The notes beneath the pieces are model-generated. The model ran no database searches. It had not been told where the DNA came from and saw only the letters and a list, made by a program, of their open reading frames with translations. Shown here one piece after another: positions 30,173 to 36,321 of a stretch of DNA of 64,000 nucleotides. The stretch spans positions 1 to 64,000 of the forward strand of contig CACIQQ010000002.1 in assembly GCA_902588835.1 (NCBI GenBank), given 5' to 3'. Each line of letters starts with the position of its first letter. The first letter of the stretch is position 1. The translations under genes and the position numbers were made by a program. The DNA is from an uncultured Pelagibacteraceae bacterium. Its GTDB lineage: Bacteria > Pseudomonadota > Alphaproteobacteria > Pelagibacterales > Pelagibacteraceae.

Positions 30173-31054
30173 TCGTTTAAATTCTGGCATCAATTGTGAA
30201 AGCAAAACTCCAGCAAGAATAAATAAACATCCTAAAATATTATCTATATTTAAAATTTGATTTAGTATAATCCAAGCTGCTATTGTTGCAAAAACACCCT
30301 CTAATGAATAAATTATTGCTGCTGGTGCGGGACTAATGTTTTTTTGGGCATAAATTTGTAAAACAAAGGCAAATCCACCGGATAATACGCCTGCATAAAG
30401 AATTTCATATGTTTCGGATAAAATATTTGAAATTGTAAAATTCTCGTAAACTAATCCAATAAAAATTGATAAAATTGATACTATTAAAGTTTGAATAAGA
30501 CCAACTGTGACTGGTAAATCAAATTTTTCTACCATTTGACCGATAAAAATAATGTGCAAACTCCAAAACAAAGCGCATACCAATACTAATATGTCTCCTT
30601 TTCTTACTGATGCGTCGTAAAAATTTGTTAGCAGATATCCTCCTACTACACACAACAAAACAGACGGCCAAACACTCCAATGAACTTTTTTTCGATAAAG
30701 GATATAAAGAACAAATGGTACTAAAGGTACATAAAAAATTGTAAAGAAAGCTGCATTAGCTACATCAGTATAAAGAAGCGCAACTTGTTGTAATGCAGAG
30801 GCTAAGAATAAAAATATACCTATAGAGATTGAGAGATATAGAAAATTTTTTTTATCTTTATTAAATTCATTAAAAAATTTATTTTTTTCAATTACAAAAA
30901 AAAATGGAATAAGAGCAAGGAAACCAACAAAAAATCTCACACCATTAAATGTGAAAGGACCTATTTCATCCATCCCTGTGTCTTGTGCAATAAAAGTAGT
31001 ACCCCAGATCAAACAACAAACAAACGCGCTTATAAGTGATAGTCTCTTTGACAT
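30149..31054 (-). CDS. EamA/DMT-family transporter
   Basis: The 301-residue protein shows about ten hydrophobic helices in two EamA repeats (LIWGTTFIAQDTG early in the first; FWSLHIIFIGQ in the second half). Drug/metabolite transporters of this type export amino acids or other metabolites; the substrate cannot be told. It is 8 bp after the E2 gene of pyruvate dehydrogenase on the same strand, so it is likely the last gene of that operon. Confidence 0.85.
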   Translation of the reverse strand: MSKRLSLISAFVCCLIWGTTFIAQDTGMDEIGPFTFNGVRFFVGFLALIPFFFVIEKNKFFNEFNKDKKNFLYLSISIGIFLFLASALQQVALLYTDVANAAFFTIFYVPLVPFVLYILYRKKVHWSVWPSVLLCVVGGYLLTNFYDASVRKGDILVLVCALFWSLHIIFIGQMVEKFDLPVTVGLIQTLIVSILSIFIGLVYENFTISNILSETYEILYAGVLSGGFAFVLQIYAQKNISPAPAAIIYSLEGVFATIAAWIILNQILNIDNILGCLFILAGVLLSQLMPEFKRLSIDKPK

Positions 31055-31062
31055 TTAATTAA

Positions 31063-31959
31063 TTATATTGAGAGGTTGTAAGCGAAATTTTTACCTAAGT
31101 TTTCTTTAATTTCATTACAAAACCTAGCAGCATCTGCTCCGTTAATAATTCTGTGGTCATAGGATAATGACAGTGGAAGTATAAGTTTCTCGCTTTTATC
31201 TTTTTGAAATATTTTTCCTATTCCTAATATAGCTACCTCAGGAGGGTTTATTATGGGTGTAAAAAATGTTCCACCTATTCCTCCAAGACTAGTGATAGTT
31301 ATTGAGCCACCTTGAAATTCTTTTTTATCAATTTTTAGATTTCTGCATTTATCACTTACTTCTTTTAGTTTTTGCGATAAGTCAGATATCTTAAATTTAT
31401 CGGCATCTCTTATTTTAGGAACCATGAGACCATGTGGAGTATCTACTGCAATACCGATATGAAAATATTTTTTTAATATTATTTGATAATTTTCCTCGTC
31501 TTTTATAGATGAATTGAAGATTGGATATTTCATCATGCTCTTCACTAATGCCTTAATTATAAAAGCAAGTGGGGTAATTTTCTTTTGCTCACCTGTGTAA
31601 CCATCCTTTAAATTTTTACGGAAGTTTTCAAGTTCAGTCACATCAGCCTCATCATGATGGGTGACGTGAGGGATAGTTCTCCACGACTCTGATAACAGCG
31701 GTGCTGCGAGCCTTTTTACTCGTGGCATTTCAACAACTTCTATTTCACCAAATTCAGAGTGATCAATTAAGTTAATTTTTGGCTCTGGTTTTTGTGTTTC
31801 TTTTAATAGCGTATTCTTTTTAGAACCTTTTATAAAATTTTTAACATCTTCCTCTGTTATCCTGCCGTTCCTTTCAGACCCTTTAAGATTTGAAATATCA
31901 GCCCCTAATTCTCTTGCAAACTTTCTTACTTTTGGAGTGGCGAGTATTCTATTAATCAT
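31063..31959 (-). CDS. aceF: Pyruvate dehydrogenase E2 (dihydrolipoyl acetyltransferase) lacking a lipoyl domain
   Basis: The 298-residue protein has a peripheral subunit (E3)-binding domain at about residues 5-43 (ATPKVRKFARELG, RNGRITEEDV), a short linker and the catalytic acyltransferase domain (about 70-298). No lipoyl domain precedes them, although E2 normally carries one to three. The active-site motif reads YDHRIINGADAARF: His is present and the usual Asp of HxxxDG is Asn, as in Azotobacter-type pyruvate E2. The missing lipoyl domain is found on the adjacent AceE. The start overlaps the aceE stop by 4 bp (ATGA). No E3 gene is nearby. Confidence 0.9.
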   Translation of the reverse strand: MINRILATPKVRKFARELGADISNLKGSERNGRITEEDVKNFIKGSKKNTLLKETQKPEPKINLIDHSEFGEIEVVEMPRVKRLAAPLLSESWRTIPHVTHHDEADVTELENFRKNLKDGYTGEQKKITPLAFIIKALVKSMMKYPIFNSSIKDEENYQIILKKYFHIGIAVDTPHGLMVPKIRDADKFKISDLSQKLKEVSDKCRNLKIDKKEFQGGSITITSLGGIGGTFFTPIINPPEVAILGIGKIFQKDKSEKLILPLSLSYDHRIINGADAARFCNEIKENLGKNFAYNLSI

Positions 31960-34900
31960 AATTTTGTTGGTATAGGTTTATTTTTATCAATGTTATACTT
32001 CTTAATCGCTTGTTCTGCATATTTTGAGGGGATTAATTGTTCTTTTGCTAAAACACTTAAAGCATAAGTAACAATATATTTTTTATCCACCTCAAAGAAA
32101 TTTCTAAGTTTTTCTCTACTGTCACTTCTCCCATATCCATCTGTTCCTAGTGAATAAAAACTTTTGTTAGTAAACGGTCTTATTTGATCTGATGTAATTC
32201 TCATATAATCTGATGCAGCTAGTATAGGGCCTTCAGCGTCTTTTAAGCAATTCTCAACATATGTTTTTTTGGGTTTTTCATTTGGATTTAAGAGATTATA
32301 TCTCTCCACTTCCATGCCATCTTTTCTTAATTCATTAAAACTTGTGACACTCCATACATCACAATCAATTTTAAAATCTTTATCCAATATGTCTGCTGCC
32401 TGCATCATTTCTCTTAAAATAGTTCCAGATCCTAATAGTTGAATTTTTTTTTTTTTGTTTTTTGAAATTTGTTTAATTTTATACATTCCTTTTAAGATTG
32501 CTTCTTCAATATTTTTATCTTTTGGTATCGCTGGATGCGGATAATTTTCATTCATTGTTGTAATATAATAAAAAATGTTTTCCTTTTTTTCATACATTCT
32601 TCTTAAACCGTCTCTGAATATTACAGCTAACTCATAAGCAAAGGTTGGGTCATAGGAAACACAATTTGGTATTGTGGAAGCAAGTAGATGGCTATGTCCA
32701 TCTTGATGTTGTAATCCTTCTCCAGCCAAAGTTGTTCTCCCAGATGTAGCGCCAATAAGAAATCCTCTTGCCTGACTATCTCCTGCAGCCCAGGCGAAAT
32801 CACCGACTCTTTGAAAACCAAACATTGAATAGAACAAATATATTGGAATCATTTCTATATCATGATTAGTGTATGATGTTCCTGCTGCTATCCAAGATGA
32901 CATGGAACCAGCCTCCGTTATTCCCTCCTCTAACACCTGTCCTGATTTATCTTCCCTGTAAGATGAAAGTAGTTTCGAATCCACAGGCTCATACTTTTGA
33001 CCTTCATGCGCGTAAATACCAATTTTTTGAAAAAAACCCTCCATGCCAAATGTTCTAGCCTCATCAGGAATTATAGGAACTAATTTGGGTGAAACATTTT
33101 TATCTCTTAAGAGGTTTGTTAACATTCTAACTAGTGCCATAGTCGTCGACATTTCTTTAGTGCCTGTTGATTGTTTCATCACATCGAAGATATCTTTTGG
33201 AGGAACTTTAATTGGTTTGGCAAAAGATGATCTCTCAGGAATGAAGCCACCAAGTTGTAATCTTCTCTCTTTTAAATATTTTATTTCTTGTGAATCTTCT
33301 TTTGGTCTGTAGTACTCAATATTTTTTACTTGCTCGTCAGTTAAAGGAACATCAAATCGATCTCTGTAATAAAGTAAATCGTCTACGTCCAATTTCTTTT
33401 GTTGATGGGTGGTATTAATACTTTCTCCAGATTTACCCATTCCATAACCTTTGATGGTTTTGGCAATTATCACTGTTGGACTACCTTTATTTTCTACTGC
33501 TCTATGGTAAGCTGAATACACTTTATGTGGATCATGGCCTCCTCGATTGAGCTTCCATATATCTCTATCGGTTAAGCTTGAGACCATTTCTTTTAATTCT
33601 TTGTATTTTCCAAAAAATTTGTCTCTTACATATGCGCCGCCCTTCGCCTTAAATGCTTGATACTCACCATCAACAGCTTCATTCATTCTTTTTACCAATA
33701 AACCTGTTTTATCTTTTGCTAATAATTGGTCCCAGTAAGATCCCCATATCACCTTTAACACGTTCCAACCAGCTCCTCTAAAAATTCCCTCAAGTTCTTG
33801 AATTATCTTTCCATTACCTCTTACAGGTCCATCTAATCTTTGAAGATTGCAGTTAACTACAAATATTAGGTTATCTAATTTTTCTCTAGAGGCTAATCCA
33901 ATTGCACCTAAAGACTCCGGTTCATCCATTTCCCCATCTCCTAAAAAGGCCCAAACTTTTCTATTCTCATCTTTAATCAAACCTCTATTAATTAAATATT
34001 TCATAAACCTAGCTTGATAGATCGCTAGCATTGGACCAAGACCCATTGATACAGTTGGAAACTGCCAGTAGTTTGGCATAAGCCAAGGGTGAGGATAAGA
34101 GGATAAACCACCTGGTAAAACCTCCTGTCTAAACGAGTCCAGTTGTTTCTCAGTTAATCTTCCCTCTAAAAAAGATCTTGCATAAATTCCAGGAGCACTA
34201 TGACCTTGAAAATATATTAGATCTCCACCAAACTTATTATTTTTTGCTCTCCAAAAATGGTTCATGCCAACGTCATATAATGTTGCAGCTGAGGCAAAGG
34301 TTCCTATGTGACCTCCAAGATCGGGGTTTTTTTTATTTGCTCTTACAACCATTGCAGCTGCATTCCATCTAATTAAAGATCTTATTTTTCTTTCAATGTT
34401 TTGATCCCCTGGAGATTTTTTATCCTCTTCAGGAGGAATAGTATTTATGTAAGGTGTATTTCGAGATAAGACTAAATCTGAGCCTTCTTTATAAGAATGT
34501 TCAATTAATTGTTTTATTAAATATTGAGCTCTTTCTTTACCGTCGTTTTGAAGAACTGCAGATAAAGACTCTAGCCACTCTTTAGTTTCAGTTGGATCTA
34601 AATCATTGCCATCAGATATTATTTCAATATTTCTGATTGGTTTCTTTTTCTCTTGGCTAATAGTTTGTGTTTCAACAGGTTTTTCTTGTTCTACTCTTTG
34701 AGATTTTTCTGCGTCTACAATTATTTTTTCAGTATCTTTAGGAATATCTAAATTTTTGACTTCTTTTTTCTCAGGTTTTTGTTTTTTTTCAGAAGCAGAT
34801 TGAATTTCTATTAGCTTATCTCCCTTCGATACTTTATCACCCACTTTTACTAAAATTTTTGAGACCTCACCTTCTTCCGTGCTTGGGACCTCCACACTTG

Positions 34901-35027
34901 ATTTATCACTTTCAAGTGTAACAATAGAGTCGTTGTTTTGAATTTTTTGACCCTCTTTAACAAGGACTTCAATAATTTCTACGTTTTCAAAATCTCCTAT
35001 ATCAGGTACTAGAATATCTTTTTTCAT
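31956..35027 (-). CDS. aceE: Pyruvate dehydrogenase E1 (AceE) with an N-terminal lipoyl domain
   Basis: A single 1023-residue frame. Residues 1-77 are a complete lipoyl domain with the lipoylation site ESDKSSVEVPS (Lys42). A charged Pro/Lys/Glu-rich linker spans about 78-140. From about 145 it is a homodimeric-type E1 (E. coli AceE is 887 residues): PTETKEWLESL, GGHIGTFASAATLYDVG, and the thiamine diphosphate motif LGDGEMDEPES...NCN. It decarboxylates pyruvate and reductively acetylates the lipoyl group. Having the lipoyl arm on E1 instead of E2 is unusual. A 40-bp-loop inverted repeat lies directly upstream of the start. Confidence 0.95.
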   Translation of the reverse strand: MKKDILVPDIGDFENVEIIEVLVKEGQKIQNNDSIVTLESDKSSVEVPSTEEGEVSKILVKVGDKVSKGDKLIEIQSASEKKQKPEKKEVKNLDIPKDTEKIIVDAEKSQRVEQEKPVETQTISQEKKKPIRNIEIISDGNDLDPTETKEWLESLSAVLQNDGKERAQYLIKQLIEHSYKEGSDLVLSRNTPYINTIPPEEDKKSPGDQNIERKIRSLIRWNAAAMVVRANKKNPDLGGHIGTFASAATLYDVGMNHFWRAKNNKFGGDLIYFQGHSAPGIYARSFLEGRLTEKQLDSFRQEVLPGGLSSYPHPWLMPNYWQFPTVSMGLGPMLAIYQARFMKYLINRGLIKDENRKVWAFLGDGEMDEPESLGAIGLASREKLDNLIFVVNCNLQRLDGPVRGNGKIIQELEGIFRGAGWNVLKVIWGSYWDQLLAKDKTGLLVKRMNEAVDGEYQAFKAKGGAYVRDKFFGKYKELKEMVSSLTDRDIWKLNRGGHDPHKVYSAYHRAVENKGSPTVIIAKTIKGYGMGKSGESINTTHQQKKLDVDDLLYYRDRFDVPLTDEQVKNIEYYRPKEDSQEIKYLKERRLQLGGFIPERSSFAKPIKVPPKDIFDVMKQSTGTKEMSTTMALVRMLTNLLRDKNVSPKLVPIIPDEARTFGMEGFFQKIGIYAHEGQKYEPVDSKLLSSYREDKSGQVLEEGITEAGSMSSWIAAGTSYTNHDIEMIPIYLFYSMFGFQRVGDFAWAAGDSQARGFLIGATSGRTTLAGEGLQHQDGHSHLLASTIPNCVSYDPTFAYELAVIFRDGLRRMYEKKENIFYYITTMNENYPHPAIPKDKNIEEAILKGMYKIKQISKNKKKKIQLLGSGTILREMMQAADILDKDFKIDCDVWSVTSFNELRKDGMEVERYNLLNPNEKPKKTYVENCLKDAEGPILAASDYMRITSDQIRPFTNKSFYSLGTDGYGRSDSREKLRNFFEVDKKYIVTYALSVLAKEQLIPSKYAEQAIKKYNIDKNKPIPTKL

Positions 35028-35041
35028 CTATATTTTTAAAG

Positions 35042-35118
35042 ATCAATATTTTAACATATTTATATCTTTTTTTCGTCATCCTAAAATGGGTTAATTAGCA
35101 TATGTTAAAAATATTGAT
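35042..35118. promoter_or_regulatory. Long inverted repeat upstream of aceE
   Basis: Arm 35042-35059 (ATCAATATTTTAACATAT) and arm 35100-35118 (ATATGTTAAAAATATTGAT) are reverse complements except for one extra A/T in the second arm. They flank 40 bp. The proximal arm begins 15 bp upstream of the aceE ATG, so the repeat is in the leader or promoter of the pyruvate dehydrogenase operon. It could be two operator half-sites or a large mRNA hairpin. Confidence 0.6.
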
Positions 35119-35214
35119 TAATTTTATAAAGAAAAAGCCTAATTATAAAAATTTAGATGCAAAAATTTGGATACAAAATATTATTCTAAATAAATATTAT
35201 AAAACACTCAAATA

Positions 35215-36321
35215 TTAATCTTTTTCTATACACATCGAAATTCCCATACCTCCTCCGATGCATAGTGTTGCCAAACCTTTTTTTCCACTTATTTTTTTTA
35301 ATTCATTTAAAAGCGTAACAACAATTCTTGCTCCTGAGGCACCTATAGGATGACCGAGTGCTATTGCTCCGCCATTGACATTTACTTTTTCTTTAGGAAT
35401 TTTTAACTCTTTTATTACAGCAATGCTTTGTGCGGCGAACGCTTCATTAATTTCAACTAAGTCCAAATCTTTTACATTCCATTTCGCTATTTCAAGAGCT
35501 TTGTTTGACGAAGGGATTGGCCCTAACCCCATTATGGATGGATCAACACCACAGGTTGCCCAAGATATAATCTTTCCTAATATTTCTAAATTATGTTTTT
35601 CAGCTAACTCTCTTGTAGTTAAAACAACTGCAGCGGCTCCATCATTAATACCAGATGAATTTCCAGGAGTGACGGTTCCCTTTTCTTTGAATGCAGAATT
35701 TAATTTTGAAAGATCATTTATTGTAATTCCAGATCTTGGATGTTCATCGGTATCATCATTAATAATTTCATTATCAAATTTTTTTTTGTTTATTGCTATA
35801 TTTGTTTTCTGTTGAGACTCAATTGCAAATTCATCTTGTTCTTGTCTTGATATATTATATTTTGCAGCAACATTTTCAGCTGTAACACCCATATGGTAAT
35901 TATAAAAAGCATCCGTTAAACCATCTTTCATCATTTGATCATGAAGTGAATTGGTCATACTTTCTTGGCCTCCAGCAATTATAAAGTTTGCAGAATTTGT
36001 TATTAATGATTGATATCCATTAACAATAGATCTTAGTCCAGACCCACACACTTGATTAATAATTATTGCAGTCTTTTCTTTTGGAATTCTAGAATTTATA
36101 GCTGCTTGCCTAGCTGGATTTTGTCCACATGATCCTGTTAAAACTTGTCCTAATATTACCTCATCAATCATATCTTCTTTTAACTTGGTCTTTTGAATTA
36201 AACTTTTGATTACTAACGAACCTAGATCATGAGCCTGTAGATCTTTATAAATACCTTTATATCTTCCTATGGCTGATCTCTGAGCTGCAACAAAAACAAT
36301 ATCTTTAGAATTTTTTGACAT
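35215..36321 (-). CDS. Acetyl-CoA acetyltransferase (thiolase)
   Basis: The 368-residue thiolase has all catalytic residues: nucleophile Cys in NQVCGSGLRS (about 89), His in GGAIALGHPIGASG and the second Cys in LCIGGGMGISM. It condenses or cleaves acetoacetyl-CoA or longer 3-ketoacyl-CoA. It is about 20-25 residues shorter than the common biosynthetic thiolase (about 390), the loss falling after the ESMTNS block and before TDEHPRSG. It is separated from aceE by 187 bp, so probably a separate unit. Confidence 0.93.
   Translation of the reverse strand: MSKNSKDIVFVAAQRSAIGRYKGIYKDLQAHDLGSLVIKSLIQKTKLKEDMIDEVILGQVLTGSCGQNPARQAAINSRIPKEKTAIIINQVCGSGLRSIVNGYQSLITNSANFIIAGGQESMTNSLHDQMMKDGLTDAFYNYHMGVTAENVAAKYNISRQEQDEFAIESQQKTNIAINKKKFDNEIINDDTDEHPRSGITINDLSKLNSAFKEKGTVTPGNSSGINDGAAAVVLTTRELAEKHNLEILGKIISWATCGVDPSIMGLGPIPSSNKALEIAKWNVKDLDLVEINEAFAAQSIAVIKELKIPKEKVNVNGGAIALGHPIGASGARIVVTLLNELKKISGKKGLATLCIGGGMGISMCIEKD

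Follow-up and report, generated by a model that had tools for sequence, protein, structure and literature searches.

Cells of the SAR11 group are among the most abundant in the sea, have few regulators, and are thought to have very little transcriptional regulation. Direct half-sites spaced at 11 bp typify response regulators of the OmpR/PhoB family, and where a box ends 11 nt ahead of a -10 and there is no proper -35, the arrangement is that of a promoter that depends on an activator. At PhoB-activated promoters the unit is 11 bp and the box is located 10-11 nt before the -10. The locus described here, between aceE and a divergent small gene in a SAR11 genome, shares with the Pho box both the 11-bp unit and the distance from box to -10, and the genome encodes PhoB (TIGR02154, above cut-off). 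The unit read in the aceE sense, TGTCAAAAA, resembles the Pho-box half-site TGTCAT. However, when set against the Pho box, the orientation to the activated gene is reversed and the middle unit does not contain TGTCA. Moreover, neither target is a phosphate gene.

The ArcA box of Escherichia coli, from the same OmpR/PhoB family, also has direct half-sites in an 11-bp register. According to passages of PMC3798270, ArcA sites consist of two to five direct repeats with a spacing of 11 or 22 bp, and pdhR-aceEF-lpdA is among the places where they occur. The element described here is likewise near a pyruvate dehydrogenase gene, and ArcA acts on carbon oxidation (PMC3798270). In contrast to ArcA, for which these passages give 176 bound regions and mostly repression, there are at most two sites per genome here, and the regulator would act by activation. 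The likeness concerns the repeat layout, and an ArcA ortholog in SAR11 is only hypothetical. The CenR box of Rhodobacter, TGA-N8-TGA, is another tandem direct repeat for an alphaproteobacterial OmpR-family regulator, but its sequence and spacing differ from those of the element, and the study describing it (PMC9275681) found no CenKR homologs in the Pelagibacterales. The candidate structured RNAs of Ca. Pelagibacter ubique (PMC2704228) are similar in coming from the same organism group and from long intergenic regions; by term counts, the words aceE, pdh and pyruvate do not occur in the main text of that paper. Among the matches listed from the openly licensed PMC literature (subscription literature being outside this scope), no description of the element, the small gene or the RNA upstream of ccmC (see below) was recognised.

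The window is the whole stretch of DNA that was analysed, 64,000 nt in length. The Pelagibacteraceae (SAR11) genome to which it belongs totals 967,393 bases over 25 contigs and is 87% complete. The features of the locus are as follows.

31956-35027, minus strand: aceE, a lipoyl domain fused to pyruvate dehydrogenase E1 (matches to Biotin_lipoyl, Transketolase_N and PDH_E1_M)
35042-35059, no strand assigned: proximal arm of the inverted repeat, ATCAATATTTTAACATAT, overlapping the aceE-side end of the conserved element
35048-35056, minus strand: extended -10-like sequence of aceE, TGTTAAAAT, overlapping the aceE-side third of the element (candidate from sequence)
35048-35078, plus strand: regulator-box-like element of 31 bp, ATTTTAACATATTTATATCTTTTTTTCGTCA in the small-gene sense, conserved across relatives
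35090-35095, plus strand: weak -10-like GTTAAT of the small gene, 11 nt past the element, its place deduced from the ccmC-side copies
35100-35118, no strand assigned: distal arm of the inverted repeat, ATATGTTAAAAATATTGAT, spanning the small-gene ATG and first codons
35102-35218, plus strand: small gene of 38 aa, MLKILINFIKKKPNYKNLDAKIWIQNIILNKYYKTLKY and stop, divergent from aceE and convergent with the thiolase gene
35215-36321, minus strand: thiolase gene, the upstream neighbour of aceE

The aceE upstream regions were collected from 123 loci, comprising the window's own, 33 of a set of 80 related loci (L003-L035, the nearest ones), and 89 other loci from genomes of the family. Two of these (L031 and L032) start within aceE and have no upstream region; they were omitted, leaving 121 usable upstream regions. 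Many of the genomes are near kin, and the counts given below do not equal independent events. Sites were located by profiles built from the same family, and the matches to the R1 and R2 profiles include training sites.

The preliminary description of this DNA had pointed to a long inverted repeat next to the aceE start, with arms identical but for one base. The two arms are indeed present, separated by 40 nt and near-perfect, but the lone difference is an inserted T and not a mismatch; apart from this indel they are perfect reverse complements. The near arm stops 14 nt ahead of the aceE ATG (35027). With a score of 15, the repeat ranks first among 1065 overlapping 120-nt tiles of the window, followed by scores of 14, 13, 13 and 13. 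The same score was reached by 6 of 2000 dinucleotide shuffles of the repeat's own 120 nt (shuffle mean of 8.9). The repeat is therefore real and locally unusual, yet within chance for 64 kb of A/T-rich DNA, and the earlier wording that it is far longer than chance was too strong, although its top rank in the window stands.

The repeat is not maintained among relatives. In the 120 nt before aceE, the score of 15 is kept only in the window's own locus (L001) and in L003-L005, with AceE proteins that are about 99-100% identical. Of the remaining loci, six have a score of 13 and thirteen a score of 11-12, and no other locus exceeds 10. The score is at background (8-9) in L094-L097, with 86% AceE identity, and does not exceed 10 in any more distant locus. 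Base pairs between the arms were counted in 16 of the 23 loci with scores of at least 11, corresponding to 15 distinct sequences, the window included. The covarying arms that the preliminary description proposed to look for upstream of aceE were sought in these 15 sequences, and no pair shows a compensatory change. The 18 arm pairs comprise 14 that are invariant, and hence uninformative, and 4 that vary by breaking only; a C-G pair is broken in 11 of the 15 sequences and never compensated. The proximal arm is located within a 46-bp block that is invariant across 19 aligned close sequences, while the distal arm drifts.

The two arms had been suggested to be paired operators of a protein that regulates the pyruvate dehydrogenase operon, which could equally take the form of one palindromic site. 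The rank of the repeat among the 1065 tiles and the invariant block around the proximal arm are what this reading would lead one to see. However, the full score is limited to four loci and falls through 13 and 11-12 to background, the broken C-G pair is nowhere restored, and the distal arm is coding DNA, which together make the reading very improbable. A hairpin in the mRNA leader, formed by the arms and controlling the translation of aceE, is scarcely credible. The arms are able to pair, but their RNA fold is no better than that of shuffled sequences (z of -0.99, with 34 of 200 shuffles equally good), the arm pairs show no covariation, and the repeat score is already at background in L094-L097 and no higher than 10 in loci farther off. 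A search of the window against Rfam finds three tRNAs only and nothing at the repeat, in agreement with the earlier remark that no known riboswitch was recognised. Since the score decays with distance, no pair is compensated and the distal arm is coding, we reject the repeat as a conserved unit. It looks like a lineage-specific, recent coincidence of two separately constrained sequences, and it illustrates that two unrelated sequences of this kind can be masked when A/T-rich DNA presents a conspicuous inverted repeat.

The constrained sequence on the aceE side is the 31-bp element, with the consensus WTTTTrACA-CATTTtnnnCnat-TTTTTGnCA when read toward the small gene. Nine positions are invariant in 26 dereplicated sites (less than 80% identical), and these include C at 11-bp steps. 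The three residues C10, C21 and C32, at positions 35055, 35066 and 35077 of the window, are invariant in 43 aligned sites. The middle half-site is weak, with one invariant C only, and in those sites that are the most regular the clear period is 22 bp. With direct half-sites about 11 bp apart, the middle one otherwise weak, the element has what appears to be the layout of an OmpR/PhoB-type box.

The element is tied to the small gene rather than to aceE. The small gene (by profile match) is found in 83 of the 121 upstream regions, and all 83 have the element (score of at least 14); 10 others have an element score in the absence of the small gene, and 28 have neither. When no limit is placed on distance, the end of the element is 22-24 nt from the ATG of the small gene in 78 of the 83. 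The other five have distances of 20, 25 and 54 nt and two partial profile matches elsewhere (L017 and L167), for which a search limited to 18-29 nt from the element gives 23 and 22 nt. The distance-limited search as a whole finds the 22-24 nt spacing in 80 of 81 cases, and the link between the element and the small gene is strengthened by the recount that is free of this limit. In the same loci, the distance from the element to aceE varies between 36 and 120 nt. Two genomes with no AceE match at an E value of 1e-100 (G154 and G178) retain both the element and the small gene. The idea of an operator near aceE thus survives in altered form: an operator-like conserved element does exist there, overlapping the proximal arm and the stretch between the arms, but it is a direct repeat, and its spacing is held to the small gene and not to aceE.

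The element is rare within each genome. With a strict tandem pattern allowing at most one mismatch, 7 of 10 genomes give the site at aceE and no further site is found; the reversed control finds none. The sequence-only profile R1 has its best match at the site between aceE and the small gene in 18 element-bearing genomes of 24; 11 of these 18 contributed R1 training sites and 7 did not. An upstream reading frame, ATGACGAAA..., starts within the element on the aceE strand. By eye, it has early stops in many relatives, and coding therefore does not explain the conservation of the element.

The aceE-side third of the element may double as an extended -10 of aceE, though not everywhere. The motif AwTGTGnTAAAA is found at the site of this third in 14 loci that do not have the small gene. 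Only 1 of these 14 loci retains C21 and 5 retain C32, and since both are mostly lost where the small gene is absent, the far half-sites follow the presence of that gene. The anchor used in these 14 loci requires four aceE-side positions, the retention of which holds by construction, and this weakens the claim for aceE. Another 14 loci of the window's genus that do not have the small gene (L098-L101, L103, L104, L107, L121, L147, L151-L153, L155 and L159) have no element left and, by eye, mostly have a tRNA gene upstream. The motif is thus retained in half of the 28 loci of this kind in the genus.

From these observations, the element could be regarded mainly as the core promoter of aceE (an extended -10, TRTGnTAAAAT), read by no dedicated regulator, with the near-fixed spacing to the small gene as a by-product of compact intergenic DNA. 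The persistence of the motif in the 14 loci is consistent with this, as is the position of the -10-like part in L154, only 5 nt before the aceE ATG. On the other hand, the motif is missing from the other 14 loci, the distance to aceE is variable, and in the g2 sites and most g4 sites the bases at this place (CAAAAA and the like) do not resemble a -10. Moreover, the element is kept in the two genomes with no AceE match and also upstream of ccmC. We consider a core promoter of aceE an unlikely explanation.

In six g4 loci (L164, L169, L175, L177, L178 and L179), a further conserved stretch is located between the element and aceE. It ends in CAGTTTATAATA, or nearly so, just ahead of aceE, and looks like a separate aceE promoter.

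The constrained sequence on the other side is the overlooked small gene. In four groups of relatives, the dN/dS values of its frame are 0.10 (16 distinct close sequences), 0.17 (21), 0.25 (8) and 0.23 (4), values that mark the frame at 35102-35218 as a protein-coding gene under purifying selection. A profile built from 23 of the small proteins matches 167 of 297 genomes of the family, in 8 of 14 genera, at E values up to 0.01; some of these matches are weak, and many of the 297 genomes are incomplete. A search of the small protein against Pfam gives only BESS (18.7 bits) and a GNAT model (14.3), both under their own cut-offs, and a search against NCBIfam gives no match. The predicted fold has two helices, with a mean pLDDT of 71 and a pTM of 0.34, which is too weak for a fold search.

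The -10 signal of the small gene is weak, with A2 in 16 and T6 in 16 of the 25 sequences of the small-gene set. If this -10 is placed at the same distance from the element as on the ccmC side, the start of the small gene would fall on the ATG itself. We infer a leaderless mRNA, starting at or beside the A of the ATG.

There are variants of this arrangement in other genomes. In two loci (L201 of G029 and L202 of G042), the small gene and the element have beside them only an ORF of about 185 aa with an AceE-like lipoyl start, and the whole genomes have no AceE match at an E value of 1e-100. In three others, where aceE was not found (L198, L199 and L200, from G178, G238 and G278), the ATG of another gene, with a product starting MTKNRSNYVDK..., sits at the element's edge, and the frame of that gene runs across the element.

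A second copy of the element is located upstream of ccmC. Twelve of the secondary matches to R1 were examined, six of which are orthologous and upstream of ccmC, with hspQ on the other side in five; the names ccmC and hspQ are by NCBIfam for L244 only. The other six (L246, L248, L250, L251, L254 and L255) are in reading frames or, for L255, at an edge, and those in L246 and L251 lie in an apparent rplE. Unselected ccmC loci were then taken from 36 of the 46 CcmC-bearing genomes among 61 of the window's genus. All 36, the window's own genome included (L286), have the element upstream of ccmC with all seven key positions intact, as do the six loci through which the copy was found. With R1 alone, Infernal reaches an E value of 0.006 in 18 of 30 ccmC loci, and a few weaker matches are at the same place. 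A match at nine positions, of which two were picked once the ccmC sites were known, is found in 30 of 30 ccmC regions, whereas mononucleotide shuffles give it in 28 of 15000. With the combined profile R2, the best sites in the window's genome are at C1:30771 (E of 2.5e-6) and C2:35047 (E of 5.6e-4), both in the R2 training set, and the next is at 0.07. Of 22 genomes searched with R2, 10 have two sites at E below 0.005, 5 have one and 7 have none; these seven include the five genomes of g5, g9 and g12.

The ccmC-side copy has the clearer promoter. A hexamer exactly 11 nt past the element has T1 in 24, A2 in 22 and T6 in 21 of 24 loci, and corresponds to a -10 box (25 loci were entered, and L273 fell outside the search pattern). 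We considered an ordinary TTGACA -35 as part of the small-gene promoter and rejected it, as the ccmC-side -10 lies 11 nt away and not about 17. The element appears to take the place of the -35 at a fixed distance from the -10, clearly on the ccmC side and weakly on the small-gene side.

This -10 is followed by a hairpin RNA, located between hspQ and ccmC, at G000:C1 ~30770-30930 in the window's own genome (L286) and also in L244, L256-L285 and L287-L291. Its 15-bp stem shows compensatory changes at 9 of the 15 pairs. The mean for shuffled sequences is 4.1, with none of 500 as high, and slid versions give 2-4. The loop contains TTATCTCCCTC in nearly all of the aligned loci, and its conserved UUAUCUCCCUC would be able to pair with Shine-Dalgarno-like sequences. 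No Rfam family matches the hairpin at E values up to 1 in the loci searched, and a search for the loop in viral contigs found 0. In stationary cells of Ca. P. ubique under sulfur limitation, ccmC mRNA increases 4.7- to 10-fold (PMC5069961). This rise is an independent hint of regulation, and the passages of PMC5069961 that report it make no mention of the element.

Comparison between relatives thus shows the small gene and, at near-fixed spacing from it, the box, as well as a second copy with its -10 and the RNA hairpin. Taken together, these features suggest that the leaderless small gene and the ccmC-side RNA are driven by the element acting as an activator box, probably one read by an OmpR/PhoB-family regulator, a reading to which we assign a probability of about 0.68. 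The 31-bp box between aceE and the divergent small gene, with its direct half-sites 11 bp apart, would be bound by a putative winged-helix response regulator of this family. The end of the box, 11 nt before the small-gene -10, would let it substitute for a -35, and transcription would start with the A of the ATG or right beside it. The first codons of the small gene supply what would then be a fortuitous distal arm, and the proximal arm would be the aceE-side third of the box, the other strand of which (TGTTAAAAT) may serve as, or overlap, the extended -10 of aceE. A protein bound to the box would thereby come into contact with the aceE promoter as well. The same box would drive the hairpin small RNA upstream of ccmC. 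From this arrangement we infer protein binding, that the protein is a response regulator, activation, the start sites, and any role at aceE.

At most two sites per genome are above noise, which is few for a response regulator. A two-target regulon in part of the Pelagibacteraceae, consisting of the small protein by pyruvate dehydrogenase and the hairpin RNA by ccmC, is a tentative proposal that we hold with some doubt. If true, carbon entry, cytochrome c maturation and starvation would be linked by one regulon in SAR11, and the box, the overlooked small protein and the overlooked small RNA would make up one of the few testable regulatory circuits of these organisms.

The box might instead be bound by a regulator of another family, such as an AraC-type or other two-headed protein. 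The half-sites recur most regularly at 22 bp, with the middle repeat weak, and no response regulator was found to co-occur with the element, both of which would fit such a protein. Against it stand the C residues that never vary, at three steps of 11 bp, across the 43 aligned sites, and the distance of 11 nt between box and -10, which is the geometry of PhoB-type activators. We regard another family as rather improbable, though deserving of some weight.

Within the OmpR/PhoB family, the distribution of genes does not single out a regulator. The window's own genome, which is 87% complete, encodes 3 proteins with a PF00486 domain, and 19 other genomes encode 3-4. The count is 4-5 in the element-negative genomes G005, G009, G012, G022 and G040, and 3-4 in element-positive genomes. 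No co-occurrence of the element with any response-regulator gene was seen, and presence and absence point to no candidate. Besides PhoB, the own genome has what look, by eye, like a regulator of the ChvI kind and an orphan winged-helix protein whose receiver is degenerate, and G003 presumably has an OmpR-like regulator. The ChvI-like and OmpR-like proteins have NCBIfam matches below cut-off only. The orphan protein is a candidate reader of the element.

The orphan protein has about 190 aa (L352, in the region of G000:C2:97351-97563, and L353) and an OmpR-type DNA-binding domain. By eye, its N-terminal half is degenerate and fast-evolving, and its gene adjoins a sugar/adenosine kinase-like gene.
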